From Methylocystis sp. (lineage in GTDB: Bacteria; Pseudomonadota; Alphaproteobacteria; Rhizobiales; Beijerinckiaceae): DNA of 63,370 bases. The DNA is taken from NCBI GenBank assembly GCA_022843405.1, contig JALHNQ010000017.1:1-63370 (forward strand), given 5' to 3'. Both the position numbers and the translations under genes were made by a program. Shown here one piece after another: positions 1-10,151 of the stretch. Position 1 is the first letter of the stretch, and every line of letters starts with the position of its first letter. The notes under the pieces were generated by a model. The model was not told the origin of the DNA, did no database searches, and worked only from the letters and a program-made list of their open reading frames with translations.

Positions 1-689
1 CGCTCGAACTGCCCCGTCTTCTGCTCATTGATGCGGAAATAGGTCGACAGCTCCATCGGGCAGCGCACGCCCTTGGGGATGTAAACGAAGGATCCGTCAG
101 AAAAGACCGCGCTGTTGAGAGTCGCGTAGAAATTGTCGGTCACCGGCACGACCGAGCCGAGATATTTCTTAACCAGCTCAGGGTGCGTCTGCACAGCTTC
201 CGAGATCGGGCAGAAAATCACGCCCGCCTTCGCCAGCTCAGCCTTGAAGGTGGTCGCGACGGACACGGAGTCGAACACCGCGTCAACCGCGACGCGCCGC
301 GTCTCGACGCCTGCAAGAATCTCTTGCTCGCGCAGCGGAATGCCGAGCTTTTCATAGGTGCGCAGAAGCTCAGGATCTACCTCGTCGAGGGACTTCGGTC
401 CGGGCGTCGATTTTGGAGCCGAGTAATAATACAGATCCTGATAGTCGACCGACGGATAATGCACCCGCGCCCAGCGCGGCTCAGTCATGGTGAGCCAGCG
501 CCGATAGGCCTCAAGGCGCCAGTCGGTGAGCCATTGCGGCTCGTTCTTTTTGGCCGAAATGAAACGAACGATGTCTTCATTGAGGCCCTTGGGGGCCTTT
601 TCCTTTTCGATATCGGTCTAAAACCCGTATTTATAGGCGTCGACGTCGATCGACTCGACGCGCGCAACGGTCTCCTGACGAGCCGCCAT
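1..689 (-). pseudogene. sufB: SufB, Fe-S cluster scaffold protein, 5' part, with in-frame amber stop
   Basis: SufB is the scaffold subunit of the cytoplasmic SufBCD complex, which assembles iron-sulfur clusters with sulfur from a cysteine desulfurase. Translating the minus strand from the ATG at 689 gives a typical alphaproteobacterial SufB N-terminus (MAARQETVARV, then DAYKYGF), but codon 24 (620-618) is TAG. The same frame then continues with conserved SufB sequence ([41 protein letters not shown]) to the window edge, so the 3' end is not visible. The Shine-Dalgarno GAGGAGAAAG lies just upstream of the ATG, so the start is secure. No good restart lies near the stop; the next in-frame Met is about 40 codons on. 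The gene is 80 bases downstream of a cysteine desulfurase gene, as in other Hyphomicrobiales. A sequencing error is possible because sufB is normally essential. Confidence 0.88.
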
Positions 690-769
690 TTTTCTTTCTC
701 CTCGTCACGACGGGTTCAAGGCCCGCCGGCCGATCGTTCCGCCTCCGCCCAGCCCGTTTTAGGCGTCGA

Positions 770-1927
770 CTAGGCGGCGGAGTGTCGCGACCTCATGCGA
801 TCCACGACACGTGCAAGAACCTTTCCAAATTGTTCTACATCCTCTTGCGTCGAAGACCAACCCAAACTGGCCCTCAGCGCCTCCTTTTCTGCTGCGCCCA
901 TCGCCGCAAGCACATGGGATTCCATCATCTTGCCTGAGGAACAGGCCGATCCCGCGGAAAGCGCGACATTCTCAAGGTCGAGCGCCATCAGCATGGTGCG
1001 CGGGGCGAGGCCGGGAATTGCGAAGGCGCTAGCGTTTGGCGCGCGCGGCGCCTCCGAACCATAGAATCGGGCGTCTGGCGCAATTTTCAAGACTTGCCGC
1101 TCCAGCTCGTCGCGCAAATCGGCGAGCCGCGACCCCTCGCCCGCGAGGTCGGCGGTCGCCGTGGTCAGCGCCGCGGCAAATCCGGCGATTCCCGAGACGT
1201 TCTCGGTTCCGGCCCGGCGTCCGAACTCCTGGCCGCCGCCGCGCAGCATCGGCGCCGCCAGATGTAAGCTCTCGTCTCGAAAGGCGAGCGCCCCGACGCC
1301 CATTGGGCCGCCGACCTTGTGTGAGGAAAGGAACAATATGTCCGCGTCGGTGGTCGCGAATGTCGTCTCGAGCCGGCCGACGGATTGCACAGCGTCGCAG
1401 ACGACGACGCCCTTCGCCGCATGGACCAGCGCCGCCGCCTCGGCGACCGGCTGAATGACGCCGGTCTCATTGTTGACGGCCTGCAGCGCCAGCATCACGC
1501 GCGCGTCGGCGCGTCGCGAAAGCGCCTCCTCCAGCGCTCGAAGCGAGATCGCGCCGTCCGGGGTCAGCGGAACGGTTTCCACTGCATCGAGAGGAAAGCG
1601 ATGGCCCTGCAGGACGCAGAGATGCTCTCCGGCGCCGGTCAGCAGAACGTCGATCGGCGGCGCATCTTCCTCTCGGCGCAGCCCAGGCGACAGCGCGAGG
1701 CTCGCCGCCTCGGTCGCGCCGCTGGTAAAGACGACGCCGCGCCGATGCCCGCCGATCGCTCGGGCGACGGCGGCCCGAGCGTCTTCGAGCAACGCCTTGG
1801 CCGCCCTTCCCTCGGCGTGCACCGAGGAGGGATTGCCCAACGTCTCCAACGCATCGAGCATCGCCGCCCGCGCCTGCGGGCGCAGCGGCGAGGTTGCGTT
1901 GTGATCGAGATAAACGCGCTTGGCCAT
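770..1927 (-). CDS. Cysteine desulfurase (class V aminotransferase, NifS/IscS-like)
   Basis: This PLP enzyme takes sulfur from L-cysteine and passes it as a persulfide to the Fe-S assembly machinery in the cytoplasm. The 385-residue protein has the family N-terminus (YLDHNATSP), the PLP-binding lysine in SSHK (K204), the RRAGTENV motif (about 238-244) and the catalytic cysteine in SAGSACSSGK (C329). The cysteine context is the NifS/IscS group I type rather than the SufS type. It is the first gene of the suf operon seen here and is followed by sufB on the same strand. A SufS-type partner is expected further downstream, outside the window. The ATG at 1927 fits the family start, although no strong ribosome binding site is visible. 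Confidence 0.95.
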   Translation of the reverse strand: MAKRVYLDHNATSPLRPQARAAMLDALETLGNPSSVHAEGRAAKALLEDARAAVARAIGGHRRGVVFTSGATEAASLALSPGLRREEDAPPIDVLLTGAGEHLCVLQGHRFPLDAVETVPLTPDGAISLRALEEALSRRADARVMLALQAVNNETGVIQPVAEAAALVHAAKGVVVCDAVQSVGRLETTFATTDADILFLSSHKVGGPMGVGALAFRDESLHLAAPMLRGGGQEFGRRAGTENVSGIAGFAAALTTATADLAGEGSRLADLRDELERQVLKIAPDARFYGSEAPRAPNASAFAIPGLAPRTMLMALDLENVALSAGSACSSGKMMESHVLAAMGAAEKEALRASLGWSSTQEDVEQFGKVLARVVDRMRSRHSAA

Positions 1928-2011
1928 GGGGTGGCTATTCTAGCAGAGCGCGTCGGCCTCGGCGCGTTTCTTGTATGTCATGCGCATTCGGCTCCCCTTA
2001 ACAGGCGATTC

Positions 2012-3709
2012 ATGCACATCGAGATCGACAAGCCCCATGTGGAGGCGCTCATCGCGCGCTTTCCGGCTCACGCTGGCCTGTCCGCGCAGCTGCGCTTTTC
2101 TAACCGCGTCGAGGCGGACCTCTCGCATTTCAGTTCGGAGGAGCTCGATTTTCTCGGCGCGATCTATCGAGACGCCGGACCCGACCTTCGCGCCCGCGCC
2201 GCGCAGCTTTCGACCTTGCGCGCGGCGATGGAGGCCAAGAGCGCGCGCTATGCCGCCGAAGACCTGGAAGAAGTGCTGCCGGCGCTGGTGCGCTATCTAA
2301 CGACCGACGCGATACGCGGTTGGATTTTTACCGCCAATGTCACGTCCAAACCCCTGCCCTATGTCATCACCCGTTTCGACTATGTCCCGGCGTCCAATGA
2401 CGAGGCGGGAAAAATCCTCATCGAACTGAAGGCCAACGCCAAGGGGACGCTGCAATCGAACCTGGTCCGGATCATGAGTTCGGACATCGCCGGCCGCACG
2501 ATCGGCGAAATCCTGGCGGCGCGCGGCTTCGTGCGGGAAACGCCGGCGCTGATCGAATCCTTTGACGCCTCCAGCGAGACCTATTTCGACTGGCGCGGGC
2601 GCTACGGCGCGCAATTTTCGGCGAAAGGCGTCGGCTTTCACGCGGAAGACCCGACCTCCACGCATCGCGACACCGACTGGTCGCGCAAGGACATCATCGT
2701 GCTGTCGAGCAATGGCTCGGAAGCCCGGCTGGTGAATGACGAAAGCATTCTTACCGGGCGCAGTCTGACCCTTGAGGCGCCTGGCGACGTTGTCGGTCAC
2801 TTTCTACGCAAGGCCGGCAAGAGCAATCGCTTCGCCGCCGAGGATGAAATCGCCGAACTCAAGGCGCTGATCCCGGAATCTCTGTTCACGCAAATTCCGG
2901 TGCATCCCTACATCTTCATGTTTCATCTCGATCTGCATCATTACGTTTGGGTGCATGTCGACGAGATGCAGCCCTATCGCTATCAGCCGCAGCTGAGGGA
3001 AAAGCTGGTCCTGCCTGAGGAGCAGACGGACTTAATCGACATTCTAACCGCCGAGATGGATGTGCTGATGGACGACATCGTCCAGGGCAAGTCGGGCGGC
3101 ACGACGGTGCTCTGCGCCGGCCCGCCCGGCGTCGGCAAGACGCTGACGGCGGAAGTCTATTCCGAAATCATCCAGCGTCCGCTCTACCGCGTGCATTCGG
3201 GCCAACTCGGGCTCAATGTCGCGACGATGGAGACCGCGCTGAAAGACATTCTCACCCGCGCCCAGCGCTGGGGCGCCGTCATGCTCATCGACGAAGCCGA
3301 CGTTTACATCAAGCGCCGCGACGACAATATCGCGATGAACGCCGTCGTCGGCGTCTTCCTGCGCGTCCTCGAATATTTCAACGGATTGCTGTTTCTCACG
3401 ACAAACCGCGTCGACGACATCGACGAGGCGATCGTCTCGCGTTGCATCGCGCTCATCCGCTATGCGCCGCCGGACGACGACGCGCGACGGCGCATCTGGC
3501 GCGTCATGGCCGGGCAGTTCGAACTGGCGCTGGACGATGCGCTGATCGATCGTCTGGTCGCGACCTTTCCGGAAGCGACTGGCCGCGACATCAAGGGCCT
3601 CGCGAAACTCGCGGCGAAATTCTGCCATCAAAAGAACGTCGCGCCGAGCCTGCCGGTTTTCCAGCGCTGCGCCATTTTCCGGGGGCTGGAGATCGCCCGC
3701 GCGGCGTGA
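2012..3709 (+). CDS. AAA+ family ATPase with an unrecognised N-terminal half
   Basis: This 565-residue protein has a C-terminal AAA+ module with Walker A GPPGVGKT (370-377), Walker B LIDEAD (about 425-430), a sensor-1-like LTTNR and a second-region VSRCIALIRY, so it should hydrolyse ATP and probably works as a ring-shaped remodeller. Residues 1 to about 330 match no domain I recognise; they are mixed helix and strand and include a stretch around DTDWSRKDIIVLSSNG. No membrane segment or signal peptide is visible. The ATG at 2012 is chosen because the reading frame upstream is open but shows no plausible protein or other Met, and an AGGCG precedes it. It is divergent from the suf operon and followed by an alpha/beta hydrolase. 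The substrate is unknown. Confidence 0.85.
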   Translation: MHIEIDKPHVEALIARFPAHAGLSAQLRFSNRVEADLSHFSSEELDFLGAIYRDAGPDLRARAAQLSTLRAAMEAKSARYAAEDLEEVLPALVRYLTTDAIRGWIFTANVTSKPLPYVITRFDYVPASNDEAGKILIELKANAKGTLQSNLVRIMSSDIAGRTIGEILAARGFVRETPALIESFDASSETYFDWRGRYGAQFSAKGVGFHAEDPTSTHRDTDWSRKDIIVLSSNGSEARLVNDESILTGRSLTLEAPGDVVGHFLRKAGKSNRFAAEDEIAELKALIPESLFTQIPVHPYIFMFHLDLHHYVWVHVDEMQPYRYQPQLREKLVLPEEQTDLIDILTAEMDVLMDDIVQGKSGGTTVLCAGPPGVGKTLTAEVYSEIIQRPLYRVHSGQLGLNVATMETALKDILTRAQRWGAVMLIDEADVYIKRRDDNIAMNAVVGVFLRVLEYFNGLLFLTTNRVDDIDEAIVSRCIALIRYAPPDDDARRRIWRVMAGQFELALDDALIDRLVATFPEATGRDIKGLAKLAAKFCHQKNVAPSLPVFQRCAIFRGLEIARAA

Positions 3710-4473: not shown

Positions 4474-4482
4474 GGCGTCACT

Positions 4483-4585
4483 GTCATTCCCGACGCGCGG
4501 AGCGCGATCGGGAATCCAGCGCAACATCAGCCTTCCTGCAATGACTCTGGATTCCCGGTCAGGCCTGCGCCCTGCCGGGAATGAC
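4483..4585. repeat. Nested palindromic intergenic repeat overlapping the 3' end of anmK
   Basis: The outer arms are GTCATTCCCG (4483-4492) and CGGGAATGAC (4576-4585). The inner arms are GGGAATCCAG (about 4510-4519) and CTGGATTCCC (4547-4556). Together they can fold into a long double hairpin. Similar GGGAATGAC/CTGGATTCCC elements are dispersed in many Hyphomicrobiales genomes (from memory). It lies between two convergent genes and runs into the last nine codons of anmK. Confidence 0.8.
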
Positions 4586-5695
4586 GGATGATCCTGCCCG
4601 CGCCAACACGCCGCCCGGTAGCGCCTCGGAGACGCCGGTCGTCGTTGGGAAGGTGATCGGCAAACCTTCCAGCACCCGCGTGGCGAGATAGGCGAAGGCC
4701 TGCGCTTCCATCGAATCCGCCGACCAGCCGACGGCGTTCGCCGTCGTCACCTTGCATGGCAGGCGCATGACGAGTTCGCGAACCAGGATCGGATTGCGCG
4801 CGCCGCCGCCGCAGACGATGAGCAATTGCGGCTGGGTCGGCAGATGCGGAAACAGCCGCAGCACCGAGGCCGCGGTAAAGGCGGTCAGCGTCGCCGCGGC
4901 GTCTTCGGTCGAGAGCTTGGCGATGGCGTCAAGCGCGAAGGCGTTGCGGTCGAGCGATTTCGGCGGCGGCTGATCGAAGAACGGATGCGCTAGCATCTTG
5001 AGCAGCGTCGCTTCATTGACGCGCCCGCGCGCCGCCGTATGGCCGTGCCGGTCAATCGGCGCGCCGGTGCGCTGGAGCATCAGATCATCGATGAGCGCAT
5101 TGCCGGGGCCGGTGTCGCAGGCGATCGGCTCCTCGCCGTCGGCGACGTAAGTGACATTGGCGACGCCGCCAATATTCAGAAGCGCCACTTCGCCCTTCAT
5201 GCCGCCGGCGATAACCAGCGCGCGATGAAACACCGGCACGATCGGCGCGCCCTCGCCGCCTGCGGCAATGTCGGCGGCGCGGAAGTCATAGGCGACGTCA
5301 ATGCCGAGACGGGCGGCCAGCGCCGGCCCGTCGCCGATCTGAATGGTGAGACCCTGCTTGGGACGGTGCAGCACCGTCTGCCCGTGAAAGCCGACGATCG
5401 CGACGCTCGCCGGGTCGATCTCATTGTCTCGCATCAGCGTCTCGACTGCCTCGGCGTGCCGATCCGTCACCATCCGTTCGGCGAAGGCGAGCACGCCCGG
5501 CCGCGCGTCGCGATCCTCGAGCGTCGCGGCTTCGGCGAGCGCGTTGCGCAGCAGCGCGCGGTCGGCGTCATTATAGGGGTAGTGCCCCGTCGGCCCGAAG
5601 GCGACGGCGGCCACGCCGTCGGTTTCAATGAGCGCGACGTCGACGCCGTCCATCGACGTGCCGGACATGAGGCCGATTGAGCGGTAGGTAGGCAA
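4559..5695 (-). CDS. anmK: Anhydro-N-acetylmuramic acid kinase
   Basis: AnmK phosphorylates 1,6-anhydro-MurNAc released during cell-wall turnover, giving MurNAc-6-phosphate for recycling. The protein (about 378 residues) opens with YRSIGLMSGTSMDGVD, carries the ATP-binding and substrate motifs VGFHGQTVLHRP, NIGGVANVTY and CDTGPGNALIDD, and ends in the FPTTTGVSEALPGG segment typical of the family. The start is TTG at 5695: an AGGGGGAG Shine-Dalgarno lies 7 bases upstream, and the first downstream ATG would remove the conserved N-terminus. The final residues (about SSVIPGRAQA) and the stop are encoded by the palindromic repeat at 4483-4585, so the native C-terminus has been replaced. A second, truncated copy of its 5' end lies at 7230-7491. 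Confidence 0.93.
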   Translation of the reverse strand: MPTYRSIGLMSGTSMDGVDVALIETDGVAAVAFGPTGHYPYNDADRALLRNALAEAATLEDRDARPGVLAFAERMVTDRHAEAVETLMRDNEIDPASVAIVGFHGQTVLHRPKQGLTIQIGDGPALAARLGIDVAYDFRAADIAAGGEGAPIVPVFHRALVIAGGMKGEVALLNIGGVANVTYVADGEEPIACDTGPGNALIDDLMLQRTGAPIDRHGHTAARGRVNEATLLKMLAHPFFDQPPPKSLDRNAFALDAIAKLSTEDAAATLTAFTAASVLRLFPHLPTQPQLLIVCGGGARNPILVRELVMRLPCKVTTANAVGWSADSMEAQAFAYLATRVLEGLPITFPTTTGVSEALPGGVLARAGSSVIPGRAQA

Positions 5696-5797
5696 GGCGA
5701 ATCTCCCCCTGAATAAGACGACCTTAGCAGAAACGAACGGCCGCTTGCCTGTCCGTGGTTGCGCGGCTAGCGTCACCGCGACGCTTGGAGCCTCCGC

Positions 5798-7123
5798 TTG
5801 GTTCAATCGGATTTGGGGCGCGATTTCATCAAAGGATCAGCAGTCACGCTCGAGACAAACGGCGGCTGGTGCTGGTTTCAGGACCAGCGCGCGATCGTCG
5901 CGTCGAGCCGGATTATCGTCGGCTCGGTCGCCGGCGCGCCGGAGGCCATTTCCCGGCGCGGCGACATCGGCGTCGCCTCATATGATCTTGCCTCCGGCGC
6001 GATCACACGCGCGAAACTTGCAGAAGGCTTCGAGGCGAACGACCATGCCTCGCCCGCCTTTCTCAGCCTCCCCGACGGCCGGATTCTCGCAAGCTACACG
6101 CGCCATCACAAAGACGATCTGATGGCGTGGCGGATCACCGAGCGGCCGGGAGACATTTCAAAATGGGGACCGGAGCGCACGCTCGATCTCGGCGCGCGCG
6201 TCACATACTCCAATCTTTTCCTGCTGCCCGGAGAGTCGGATCGCATCTACAATTTCCACCGCGGCCTCGGCTTCAATCCGAATGCGGCGATCTCCTCGAA
6301 CGGCGGCGAGAGTTTCGTCTATGCCGGACGGCTTCTGAACTGGCCGCGGCCGGTCGGCGATCCAGTCTTTACGGGCGTCGACGGCGGAAGGCCCTATGTG
6401 AAATATGCGTCCAACGGGATAGACGCGATTCACTTCGTGACGACGGAAGACCACCCCTGGGCCTATGACACGGGCGTCTATCACGGCTTCCTTTCCGGCG
6501 GAAAACTACATGGCTCCGACGGCTCGGCGCTCGCGGACTTCGGCGCGGAAGGCGTTTCGCCAAAAGCATTGACGCGACTCTTTGCGGGCGATCCGGATAA
6601 CGTCGCCTGGACGGTCGATCTGCGCCTCGACCCGCAGGAGCGCCCCTATACGGTTTTCAGCGTCCAGAAGGACGGACGGGCCCATCGCGGAACCATTGGT
6701 CCCTGCGCGCAGGACCATCGCTATCACTATGGCCGGTGGGACGGGCGGGGTTGGAACGTTTTCGAGATCGCTTTCGCCGGAACCAATATCGGCAAGATCG
6801 ACGATTACACCGGCCTCGCCGCCCTCGATCCGCACGATCCCGACCGCATGGTCATCTCGACCAATGCGGATCCGGATTCCGGCGCTCCGCTCATCAGCCG
6901 CGCCGACGGCCGGCGGCATCACGAACTCTTCGAAGGCGCATCGACAGACGGCGGCAGGACCTGGGCGTGGACGCCGCTCACGGCCAACTCAACGGTAGAC
7001 AACATTCGTCCGATCATCCCTGTCTGGCCCGGAGAGCGCCGCGCGATTCTCTGGTTGCGCGGAACCTATCGCACCTGGACCAACTACGATCTCGACGTGC
7101 TGTGCCTGATCCAAAGGCGATAG
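5798..7123 (+). CDS. BNR_4 repeat protein (sialidase-like beta-propeller)
   Basis: A 441-residue protein resembling the BNR_4 family (PF15892). It has the family signature GGWCWFQDQRA near residue 22, then FHRGLGFNPN, an Asp-box-like SSNGGESF, VKYASNGIDAIHF, EDHPWAYDTG and a late STDGGRTWAW Asp box. Members have a beta-propeller fold and some act on polysaccharides; the substrate here cannot be deduced. No clear signal peptide is seen. Start: TTG at 5798 with GGAG about 7 bases upstream; no in-frame ATG precedes the signature. It is divergent from anmK and is followed at once by gene fragments, so it appears to sit on rearranged DNA, possibly acquired by transfer. Confidence 0.78.
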   Translation: MVQSDLGRDFIKGSAVTLETNGGWCWFQDQRAIVASSRIIVGSVAGAPEAISRRGDIGVASYDLASGAITRAKLAEGFEANDHASPAFLSLPDGRILASYTRHHKDDLMAWRITERPGDISKWGPERTLDLGARVTYSNLFLLPGESDRIYNFHRGLGFNPNAAISSNGGESFVYAGRLLNWPRPVGDPVFTGVDGGRPYVKYASNGIDAIHFVTTEDHPWAYDTGVYHGFLSGGKLHGSDGSALADFGAEGVSPKALTRLFAGDPDNVAWTVDLRLDPQERPYTVFSVQKDGRAHRGTIGPCAQDHRYHYGRWDGRGWNVFEIAFAGTNIGKIDDYTGLAALDPHDPDRMVISTNADPDSGAPLISRADGRRHHELFEGASTDGGRTWAWTPLTANSTVDNIRPIIPVWPGERRAILWLRGTYRTWTNYDLDVLCLIQRR

Positions 7124-7127
7124 CCGT

Positions 7128-7236
7128 TCAATGACGCCGCCCCTCCCACGCCCAGGCCGCGACCACTGCGCCGACCAGCGCCAGCATCGCCCACAGTCCC
7201 AAGCCCAGCGGCGCGATTTCGACGCCGACCAGCGTC
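7128..7236 (-). pseudogene. Duplicated 3' end of the COG5426-like gene at 8073-10151
   Basis: Read in its own frame, this stretch encodes TLVGVEIAPLGLGLWAM and ends in AWEGRRH followed by TGA. This matches the last 30 or so residues of the intact gene at 8073-10151, which ends in VWGWEGRR. By eye about nine bases differ over roughly 100. It has no start and is fused, out of frame, to the anmK fragment at 7230-7491 through a shared 7-base CAGCGTC (plus-strand 7230-7236). Confidence 0.88.
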
Positions 7237-7491
7237 TCCGACCGCCTCGGCGTGCCGATCCGTCACCATCCGTTCGGCGAAGGCGAGAACGCCCGGCCGC
7301 GCGTCGCGATCCTCGAGCGTCGCGGCTTCGGCGAGGGCGTTGCGCAACAGCGCACGGTCGGCGTCATTATAGGGATAGTGCCCCGTCGGCCCGAAGGCGA
7401 CGGCGGCCACGCCATCGGTTTCAATGAGCGCGACGTCGACGCCATCCATGGAGGTGCCGGACATGAGGCCGATTGAGCGGTAGAGGGGCAT
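7230..7491 (-). pseudogene. Truncated second copy of anmK (5' part)
   Basis: The ATG at 7491 opens MPLYRSIGLMSGTSMDG and the frame stays identical in protein sequence to intact anmK for about 80 residues, up to RHAEAV. The DNA has about ten scattered differences and those I compared were synonymous. It then breaks at a fusion with the 3' fragment of another gene and runs on as nonsense. The kinase active-site regions further on are missing, so it cannot be a working kinase. Its ATG overlaps the vapD stop (TGATG). Confidence 0.9.
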
Positions 7492-7793
7492 CAGGAGCCC
7501 GTATTGCGGGGAGCGCCCTTCACCAACTGGGTGAAGTCGGACCACTGTTCGACGCGAAAGGCGCGTATATCGCGCACCGCATGTGGAAACCAAGGCAGGT
7601 TACGCAGAGCCATGATAGCGGAGAAGAGCTTGGCCAAATCCTCATTCTTGCTGACATAGAGGCTGCCCTGCACCCAGTCGAACTCGAATTTGGAGAGCGT
7701 GTCGCGAATATCCGAATAAGCTTGCGCGACCCCTTTCGGATGATGGATTTGCGTTTCGGAGACGACCAAATCGAACGCGATGGCGAACATCAA
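7491..7793 (-). CDS. vapD: VapD-family endoribonuclease toxin
   Basis: A 100-residue protein of the VapD family, small Cas2-like-fold ribonucleases found in toxin-antitoxin pairs. It opens MFAIAFDLVV and contains FDWVQGSLYVS, LAKLFSAIMALR, VRDIRAFRVEQWSDFTQLVK, all in family order and near full family length. The tail after LVKG (APRNTGS) looks newly acquired. Its ATG overlaps the stop of the upstream DUF5397 gene by 4 bases (7790-7793), which indicates one operon. Its stop shares a base with the ATG of the truncated anmK copy. The pair sits between the intact COG5426-like gene and that remnant, so it probably arrived with or before the rearrangement. Confidence 0.9.
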   Translation of the reverse strand: MMFAIAFDLVVSETQIHHPKGVAQAYSDIRDTLSKFEFDWVQGSLYVSKNEDLAKLFSAIMALRNLPWFPHAVRDIRAFRVEQWSDFTQLVKGAPRNTGS

Positions 7794-8005
7794 CGCTCCT
7801 TGGGATCATCCAGAATGTCGCTGAATTTATAATCGACGACTTCGCCGGATTCGAGCACGCGAATTTGCATCCAGCGATCGCCCAAGGGCTCTTCCTTGCC
7901 GAGGCCAATGATCTCATAGGCCGGCCCAAATGGACCGAAGCGGCGGCATGTGCCGATCAGGGCTTGCGGCTCGGGGATGAAGGATGCGGCTGGGTGTTGA
8001 TTCAT
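7790..8005 (-). CDS. DUF5397-like protein, probable antitoxin of VapD
   Basis: A 71-residue protein with ALIGTCRRFGPFGPAYEI, GDRWMQIRVLESGEVVDY and a C-terminal DILDDPKER. This matches the DUF5397 type of small protein often encoded directly upstream of vapD (from memory of such loci). It is translated just before vapD, with a 4-base ATGA overlap, so the two should be made together. The antitoxin role rests on this position only; no DNA-binding motif is obvious. The ATG at 8005 is the only reasonable start. Confidence 0.7.
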   Translation of the reverse strand: MNQHPAASFIPEPQALIGTCRRFGPFGPAYEIIGLGKEEPLGDRWMQIRVLESGEVVDYKFSDILDDPKER

Positions 8006-8072: not shown

Positions 8073-10151
8073 TTACCGCCGCCCCTCCCAACCCCACACC
8101 GCAACCACGGCGCCGAGCAGCGCCAGCATCGCCCAAAGCCCCAAGCCCAGCGGCGCGATTTCGACGCCGACCAGCGTCGAGGCGCCGGTCTGCCTGATTC
8201 CGATCCAGTCCGAGCCGCCATAGCGGTTGGCGTCGCGCAATTCGACCACGCGCGGCATGGAGACCGTGTCGGCGCCGCCGTTCGACAGGCGCCGCGCCGT
8301 CCCACCCGTCGCTTCCACCAGCGGCTGCAGTTTCTCCGTCGTCGACGCGACTTCGCGGAACTCGCGCGGATTGGGCGGGCCGACATTGACGAGCGCCGTG
8401 AGGCCCTCGCTTTCGAAGCGCCATAGGCCCATTTCCTTCGCGTCGAAACGCGCCCGCCACAGTCCCGGCTCGCTCTGCGCGACTGCAATTTCGTCGCGCG
8501 CGCCCGACGGCGCCGTCGCCATCACCGGCGCGGGCGTCTCCTTCATCGTCTGCCGCTCCACGCTCACCTCGCGGCCATGCGCCGACGCACGCAGCGCCTC
8601 CTCTTCGAGGTCGGGCTCCTTCATCAGCCAATGGGCGAGACGGCGCATCAGATCGACATGCGGGCCGCCGCCTTCGAAGCCGCGCGCCCAGAGCCAGATC
8701 TGGTCGGAGAGCAGCAGCGCCACCCTGCCCTTGCCTTCGTGCGACAGCACCAGCAGCGGCTTGTCGCGCACGCCGGACATGATCGAGTCGCCCTTCACCA
8801 CATTGGCGTCGACCTGCCGAAACCACTCGCCCCAATTGGGGGGTTCGGATTTGGCGCCGGCCAGTCCGCGCGTCACCGGATGCTTCTCGCCATCCTTGCT
8901 GACGCGGGCGCGAAACGCTTGCTCGATCAGCGCGCCGTCGGGGCGCGCCGGCAGGATGTTTTCGAGCGGCGAGTAATAGAGCCCGCGCAGCGTCGCGTAA
9001 TCGGGGCCGACAGCCGCCAGAAAGGCGCCGCCGTTCTCGACGTAATTGGCGATGTTCTCGAAATAGATCGAGGGCAGAGTCGTCTGGCTCGAATAGCGGT
9101 CGAAGATGATGAGATCGAATTCGTTGATCTTGCGACCGAAGAGATCGGCGGTCGGAAAGGCGATCAGCGACAATTCGCTTGCCGGGGTGATGTCGAGCTT
9201 CTCCGGCGGCCGAAGAATGGTGAAATGCACCAGTTCGACATTGGCGTCGGCGCGCAGAAGATTGCGCCAGCTTCGCTCGCCGGGATGCGGCTCGCCGGAG
9301 ACGAGCAGAACCTTGAGCCGGTCGCGCACGCCTTCAATCGCCAGCACAGCCTTGTTGTCGAGCGGCGTCAACTCGCCCGGCGCTGATGGAATTTCGAGTT
9401 CGACGACATTCTGGCCGCCATGTTCGATGCGCACCGGAATGCTGACGATATCGCCGGGAACGGGGCTGAAGGTCGGCAGCGCCTCGCCGTCGCGACGCAC
9501 GGAAATCGGGATGCGCGCGCCATCGCCGCCAAGATCGACGATTCGCGCGCGGATGATCTGATCCTTGCCGACGATGCCGAAACGCGGCGCTTCGACAAGT
9601 TCGATCCGGCGGTCGCGCTCGCCTTGATGCCCTGTCACGAGCGCGTGAACGGGCGCTTTGAAGCCGAGCGCTTCGGCTTTGGCGGGAATATCGTGAACGA
9701 CGCCGTCGGTGAGCAGAATCGCGCCGCCGACGCGCTCCGGCGGAACATCCTTCAAGGCTTCGGCGAGCGCGCCGAAGAGCTTGGTGCCGTCATTTCCGGA
9801 AGCGTCGTTGGCGACGCTGATCGCGCGCGTTTCGACGTCGCCGAATTTGGCGAGCGCGGAGTCGAGCGCCTTGCGCGCCTCTTCGGTCTGCGCGGTTCTG
9901 GCGCCGAAATTCTGACTGTCGCTCTTGTCGATCACGACGGCGACGACGCTCTTTTGCGGATCGCGCTTTTCGCGCACCAGCGATGGATCGGCGAGCGCCG
10001 CAATCAACAAGGCGAACGCGAACGCGCGCAAGCCGACGCCGCGCTGGCCTTTCGCCGCCATTAGCGCAAGCGCGCCAGCGCCAAGAATTGCGAGGACGAT
10101 CAGCGCCGGCCAAGGAATGAGCGGCGAAAAGGCGAGCGTGAGGTCGCTCAC
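8073..10151 (-). CDS. Membrane protein with vWA-like and glutamine-amidotransferase-like regions (COG5426-like)
   Basis: This 692-residue protein is the last gene of the MoxR operon. It begins with two hydrophobic segments (about 10-30 and 40-55), then a von Willebrand A-like region opening VVAVVIDKSDS, with ILLTDGVVHD. A Rossmann-like segment follows (KVLLVSGEPHPGERSW, FDLIIFDRYSS) resembling a class I glutamine amidotransferase fold, without a clear catalytic Cys. A C-terminal membrane helix (LGLGLWAMLALLGAVVAVW) closes it. The GTG start at 10151 overlaps the upstream stop (GTGA), indicating translational coupling. Such proteins accompany moxR, DUF58 and DUF4159 genes; the function is not established, though an envelope role is likely. 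Its 3' end is duplicated at 7128-7236. Confidence 0.82.
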   Translation of the reverse strand: MSDLTLAFSPLIPWPALIVLAILGAGALALMAAKGQRGVGLRAFAFALLIAALADPSLVREKRDPQKSVVAVVIDKSDSQNFGARTAQTEEARKALDSALAKFGDVETRAISVANDASGNDGTKLFGALAEALKDVPPERVGGAILLTDGVVHDIPAKAEALGFKAPVHALVTGHQGERDRRIELVEAPRFGIVGKDQIIRARIVDLGGDGARIPISVRRDGEALPTFSPVPGDIVSIPVRIEHGGQNVVELEIPSAPGELTPLDNKAVLAIEGVRDRLKVLLVSGEPHPGERSWRNLLRADANVELVHFTILRPPEKLDITPASELSLIAFPTADLFGRKINEFDLIIFDRYSSQTTLPSIYFENIANYVENGGAFLAAVGPDYATLRGLYYSPLENILPARPDGALIEQAFRARVSKDGEKHPVTRGLAGAKSEPPNWGEWFRQVDANVVKGDSIMSGVRDKPLLVLSHEGKGRVALLLSDQIWLWARGFEGGGPHVDLMRRLAHWLMKEPDLEEEALRASAHGREVSVERQTMKETPAPVMATAPSGARDEIAVAQSEPGLWRARFDAKEMGLWRFESEGLTALVNVGPPNPREFREVASTTEKLQPLVEATGGTARRLSNGGADTVSMPRVVELRDANRYGGSDWIGIRQTGASTLVGVEIAPLGLGLWAMLALLGAVVAVWGWEGRR

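Follow-up and report, generated by a model that had tools for sequence, protein, structure and literature searches.

A chimeric anmK and COG5426-like stretch in a variable gap between two conserved Methylocystis genes and its possible origin by one-sided capture

We analyzed a window of 63,370 nucleotides (the whole stretch of DNA under study), in which a short chimeric stretch lies between an intact COG5426-like gene and an intact anmK gene. The genome carries a PF02461 (AMO) gene, and the host is probably a Methylocystis-like, methane-oxidising bacterium. The features of the locus are listed here by position in the window.

8073–10151, minus strand: intact COG5426-like gene (ORF, 692 aa); left flank of the hotspot and last gene of a MoxR/DUF58/BatA-DUF4159 operon
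7790–8005, minus strand: DUF5397 (VapX-like) gene (PF17375, E = 1e-11), taken as resident cargo; same position in relatives
7491–7793, minus strand: VapD-like gene (PF09827, E = 8e-6), taken as resident cargo; its stop TGA overlaps the ATG of the remnant
7237–7491, minus strand: anmK remnant, codons 1–84, leader lost; 95% identical to 5443–5694
7230–7236, minus strand: joint, the 7 bases CAGCGTC (minus-strand reading GACGCTG), bordered towards anmK by a single additional G
7131–7236, minus strand: remnant of the COG5426-like gene end, codons 659–692; 91% identical to 8077–8178
5798–7123, plus strand: BNR_4 gene, 441 aa (PF15892, E = 3e-16), taken as newcomer cargo
5696–5735, minus strand: anmK leader before the intact gene, ending GGGGGAGATTCGCC; compared with relatives
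4559–5695, minus strand: intact anmK, 378 aa, TTG start at 5695 (PF03702, E = 3e-89; NF007141 above the cut-off); right flank of the hotspot

The order on the minus strand is COG5426-like gene, DUF5397 gene, VapD-like gene, anmK remnant, gene-end remnant and intact anmK, with BNR_4 on the plus strand before the last of these and ending 4 bp from the stop of the chimeric remnant. For the intact anmK, the ORF list contains a longer form starting at an upstream TTG. The COG5426-like gene matched no Pfam or NCBIfam profile, and its label comes from the first reading of the sequence; in the operon upstream of it, BatA and DUF4159 were identified by profile matches, and two further genes are presumably MoxR and DUF58.

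An earlier note on this DNA had described the stretch as the remains of second copies of anmK and the COG5426-like gene, and both alignment and a DNA search of the own genome confirmed its coordinates and content. Positions 7239–7490 matched 5443–5694 over 252 nt with 95% identity, and positions 7135–7236 matched 8077–8178 over 102 nt with 91% identity; the own-genome search returned these places only (E = 7e-114 for anmK and 6e-35 for the gene end), which excludes a chance match. The extents given in the note, about 80 first codons of anmK and the last 30 codons of the other gene, became codons 1–84 and 34 codons (659–692). The chimeric stretch is real. An artefact of assembly collapse is unlikely, since the two copies in one contig differ by 4% in anmK codons 4–84 and by 9% in the gene end.

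Neither of the two matches contains an internal indel, and the sole extra base is found at the joint, between CAGCGTC and the anmK stretch, which is why the ungapped anmK match stops at 7239. The 7-base sequence at 7230–7236 is indeed common to both parent genes, as had been noted, but the extra base beside it weakens a reading as clean microhomology. When random joints were drawn between 600 nt of anmK and 400 nt of the gene end, at least 7 shared bases occurred at a frequency of 0.0019 (0.19%).

We then compared the coding content of each remnant with that of its intact counterpart. The anmK protein had been reported to match exactly, with silent changes in the DNA, and this applies to codons 4–84, in which all 10 nucleotide differences are silent and 0 are replacements, but not to codons 1–3 (ATG CCC CTC in the remnant vs TTG CCT ACC in the intact gene) or to the gene end. 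The latter carries the replacements L679V, V685A and G687A, and in place of the stop codon TAA it has CAT, with a TGA directly after it at 7130–7128. Because V679, A685 and A687 are common residues in relatives, these replacements look like ordinary alleles and not like decay. TTG is the anmK start in 25 of the 28 relatives compared (in the 3 others, which are distant, the aligned stretch begins later), and it is preceded there by a leader ending GGAGATTCGCC or similar; it follows that the intact anmK is normal and that the remnant has lost its leader. The stop TGA of the VapD-like gene overlaps the ATG of the leaderless remnant as TGATG (7489–7493), a form that could couple translation.

The genus set comprised 39 genomes including the own, of which 38 matched the query (the exception was G022). 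A COG5426-like gene followed by anmK on one contig, the ancestral order suggested in the earlier note, was seen in 29 of the 38 other genomes (28 loci were fetched, and G019 was placed by match coordinates). The gene end and anmK were on two contigs in G029, G030, G034 and G035, and in G001, G004, G015 and G017 anmK was found and the gene end was undetected, the G017 locus being shortened by a contig end. Spacer and alignment analyses omit these last four genomes and G019, and the distant G014, G024 and G036 were also omitted from the alignments.

The gap between the COG5426-like gene and anmK ranged from 45 to 3,477 bp across 28 genomes, as measured by protein alignments and accurate to a few bases. 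In a 20-genome control, this gap was 166–3,474 (median 886), whereas three gaps upstream in the operon stayed within –71 to 163, that between MoxR and its neighbour was 224 to 1,357, and that on the other side of anmK was 28–3,324 (median 106, 19 genomes); the ends of these control gaps were extrapolated from partial alignments, and another two gaps could be measured in a single genome. The gap between the two conserved neighbours holds variable cargo and is far more variable than those upstream in the operon, although variability is not unique to this side of anmK because the far-side gap also varies in some genomes.

We then looked for both kinds of cargo in the relatives. The VapXD-like pair, which has a putative toxin-antitoxin role, also lies in this gap in G028, G016, G027 and G030, and is partial in four more genomes (shortened in G008 and G007, fragmentary in G031 and G035). 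The VapD-like gene matched NCBIfam VapD with E = 4e-9 and 36.8 bits, against a cut-off of 100, and has the DUF5397 partner gene directly upstream; since 24 of the 199 family genomes gave a VapD-like match at any strength, the gene also occurs outside this gap. BNR_4 was found in 1 of the 39 genus genomes, namely the own, and in 2 of the 199 family genomes including the own, the other match being weak (E = 5e-4) and covering a short stretch. Its relatives, at 44–51% identity, came from Minicystis rosea and from Opitutaceae, Planctomycetales, Acidobacteria and Phycisphaera MAGs, in a search that reaches close relatives only and may have left out the genome's own records. The only strong relatives of BNR_4 that we found belong to a myxobacterium and to MAGs of Opitutaceae, planctomycetes and acidobacteria, which would be distant as a source for this genome.

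To examine the history of the two remnants, we built an anmK tree from 240 columns and 29 rows (G034, G037 and rows with at least 120 gaps were omitted). The remnant was sister to the intact gene (98/98), and G032, the next nearest by path, was used to polarise the changes on the remnant branch. The anmK part of this branch had 5 silent and 0 replacement changes and the gene-end part 3 silent and 2 replacement changes, so that 8 of 10 were silent, compared with an expected proportion of 0.28 (P = 0.0011). Of the two replacements, L679V has the base most common in relatives, and the second counts as a replacement relative to the AGG codon of G032 but is silent against the CGG of the intact gene. 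This pattern indicates that both remnants evolved as working alleles, in agreement with the earlier suggestion that the copy had been under selection, or had come from a related strain, before it was broken, and a copy dead from birth is disfavoured by the same count. Because silent changes dominate the branch, the pieces were probably parts of working genes for most of the time since they diverged, and their breakage is probably recent. Judging by the anmK tree, the source of the anmK piece would be closer to the own genome than the other 27 rows. The gene-end remnant is nearest to G025, with 93% identity against 91% to the own intact copy; the tree built from its 102 nt lacks resolution and did not reject a grouping with the own lineage (p-AU 0.375).

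Similar but more decayed pieces of anmK were observed in the same gap of 3 of the 32 other genomes having at least part of it. An anmK start together with its leader is represented by 132 bp in G005 and by about 110 bp in G013, the latter alignable only with indels; G030 has a 39-bp piece (nt 154–192 of anmK), and in all three the same PDZ-protein cargo follows within ~20 bp. The order is the same in G005 and G013, and their remnants are therefore likely to represent one event. In G005, 5 codons of the remnant differ from the intact anmK by a replacement and 1 differs silently. No match to the end of the COG5426-like gene was obtained in the gaps of the 32 genomes. Short matches of 23–44 bp, with E values from about 1e-4 to 8e-4, were treated as noise, namely those to anmK in G027 and, inverted, in the window's own spacer, and those to the inner COG5426-like gene in G005, G031 and G009; a further tiny anmK-like piece after VapD in G030, noticed by eye, was below the cut-off and was not used. 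No integrase or transposase was found among the 9 of 62 gap ORFs that were scanned (8 whole and 1 trimmed to a later start), nor among the three cargo genes of the window. These observations tentatively suggest, at somewhat under even odds, that the gap before anmK is a self-recording exchange site working without an integrase, in which dead anmK starts left by one-sided captures form a rough age series across a probably methanotrophic genus; if so, the series would run from fresh in the window's genome, through mutated in G005 and broken by indels in G013, to nearly gone in G030.

For the window itself, we propose that the chimeric stretch is a scar left when an allele of a close relative was captured on one side only, and we put the probability of this reading at slightly below 60%. 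The resident order on the minus strand would have been COG5426-like gene, VapXD pair and anmK, and the incoming fragment, from a closely related lineage, would have carried the gene end, BNR_4, the leader and anmK. Homologous recombination would have occurred within anmK downstream of codon 84, and the other end of the fragment, inside the COG5426-like gene, would have been joined illegitimately to codon 84 of the resident anmK at GACGCTG. The resident anmK start would then have been left as a dead remnant beside the donor gene end, with a working anmK rebuilt downstream, and the loss of the remnant's leader would represent a second, small event. The resident VapXD cargo would have been kept in the process; a short loss of anmK between codon 84 and the crossover would be invisible. 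The crossover was not located in the intact anmK, for which seven triplet tests gave weak and inconsistent signals (p 0.0004–0.07, uncorrected, two of them driven by alignment ends), and six triplet tests in the COG5426-like gene yielded nothing (p 0.065–0.78). With regard to how the DNA might have entered, ComEC and DprA genes are present in the genome, which says little because they were also matched in 10 and 11 of 14 control genomes, respectively. A gene transfer agent was considered as the carrier and set aside, the GTA_TIM family being found in 1 of the 14 control genomes and not in the own; another carrier may have been involved.

The same product and the same microhomology joint would also result if two full gene–anmK units had lain one after the other, the second having arisen through duplication or been acquired from a relative by integration, and a deletion between the GACGCTG of anmK and that of the COG5426-like gene had then fused the halves, and full copies under selection would account for the silent changes. 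This route requires one extra step, however, a second full anmK or COG5426-like gene was found at no relative locus examined, and it does not predict the remnants of G005, G013 and G030, which are followed by cargo and have no gene end. We regard it as a reading with a modest but real chance, and from this one genome it is not distinguishable from capture in one step. The earlier note had favoured a tandem or recombined pair followed by a microhomology deletion; the recombined origin is retained here, but the separate deletion is not needed, because an incoming allele that joins the resident anmK at the 7-base match, and recombines in the normal way farther along anmK, would give the same product in one step. 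A local tandem duplication from codon 659 to anmK codon 84 via the 7-base repeat, with cargo later changed or differentially lost, is unlikely, although it would produce the joint expected from GACGCTG repeats and would allow the lost leader and the altered gene-end stop to be scars of later deletions. Remnants born dead in this manner would change neutrally, contrary to the excess of silent changes on their branch; in addition, the two long matches are free of indels apart from the base at the joint, and the two units carry different cargo.

A circle of a relative's DNA, closed at the 7-base match and integrated by a single crossover in anmK or the COG5426-like gene, likewise predicts the observed order and joint, and for E. 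coli one report refers to linear DNA being made circular through ligation (PMC3240628); with no distinguishing feature at this locus and an extra closing step, it has in our view only a slim chance. It is highly improbable that the remnant functions as a short gene, coupled to VapD at TGATG, whose product would be the N-terminus of AnmK with a tail read in another frame. In favour of such a gene, 135 aa can be read without a stop from the ATG at 7491 (within a 169-aa ORF that begins at an upstream TTG), the VapD stop overlaps this ATG, and codons 4–84 lack replacement changes. Open frames, however, occur often in this G+C-rich DNA (94 ORFs of at least 60 aa overlap the first 16 kb), and 84 residues amount to less than a quarter of the 378-residue kinase and are followed by a frame-shifted tail, from which we infer non-function.

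One-sided capture, the reading that we prefer, closely resembles homology-facilitated illegitimate recombination (HFIR), which has been reported for three competent species and for conjugation of E. coli, usually with 3–10 bp at the joint (PMC3240628, in the sections drawn on here). In HFIR, as in the capture proposed here, one end would be homologous, the other illegitimate with short homology, and foreign DNA would be trapped between them; the short shared sequence at the present joint (7 bases, with an extra base beside it) fits the range of 3–10 bp. The outcome of HFIR in the same sections was an insertion with a deletion of similar size, whereas the present case is an addition that kept the resident cargo and duplicated the anmK start. 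HFIR was moreover seen in the laboratory, whereas this is a natural case in which the homologous end was not located. An origin of the trapped DNA in another lineage is favoured by the excess of silent changes and by the absence of BNR_4 from the 38 other genus genomes, among which no donor allele with the gene end, BNR_4 and anmK alone was found.

Hotspots without mobile elements have been reported to turn over through flanking core genes (PMC5635113, as far as the part cited here extends), and they share with this gap a variable cargo between two conserved genes and, on the reading proposed here, exchange via the flanks. In the cited part of that study, strains within species were compared and recombination rates were tested, whereas our comparison took one representative per species. 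Successive one-sided insertions, with HFIR as the mechanism, were proposed for type VI immunity-gene arrays of Vibrio cholerae (PMC5361080, in part), and there too a one-sided insertion leaves some of the older cargo behind; unlike the immunity genes of those arrays, the leftover here is a core-gene start with an unrelated cargo pair. Transformation of Streptococcus pneumoniae makes tandem merodiploids, which illustrate that incoming DNA can create partial duplications, although those merodiploids are ~100–900 kb and repeat-based according to the portion cited (PMC3784515), compared with ~360 bp here. Homology-assisted illegitimate recombination was proposed for two-state loci in E. coli in a passage of another report (PMC2884548).

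In these sources, as excerpted here, one-sided captures were described from laboratory crosses or inferred from genome comparisons. A search of a limited literature collection, with the genus name assumed, found no paper on this locus; anmK combined with Methylocystis gave no paper, and Methylocystis combined with natural transformation gave papers that were unrelated, judging by their listing. The locus thus offers a good example from nature of a process that is already known, close to HFIR and to hotspot turnover. One short locus shows several probable events of different ages, and the order of the parent genes is known from relatives, so that the rate and the favoured side of captures could be measured by sequencing more strains. 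The locus also suggests how unrelated small cargo genes accumulate between two conserved genes.

Several further observations were made on the gap and its surroundings. Nine gap loci contain a gene whose PDZ match is weak and does not reach the cut-off, and G005 also has this gene, as judged by DNA match; an FkbM methyltransferase is found in the gap of G005 and G013. The gaps of G010, G021, G009 and G038 (loci L038, L041, L047 and L049) contain a related gene, whose G038 member, the one scanned, matched PF05526 (R_equi_Vir, E = 2e-7), a family that is unexpected here. The only sizeable ORF in the G025 gap (L044) encodes a CAP12/Pycsar-type TIR protein (PF10137, E = 1e-37), possibly a defence gene without an adjoining partner. 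The two G030 contigs (L068 and L045) end within the gene for the PDZ protein, and at each of these ends a similar inverted GTTTGAGAATG motif was recognized by eye, possibly the mark of an inserted element. In the gap of variable length beyond anmK, the window contains at 4480–4590, between anmK and a hydrolase gene, a palindromic repeat of the GGGAATCCAG...CTGGATTCCC type, also recognized by eye.
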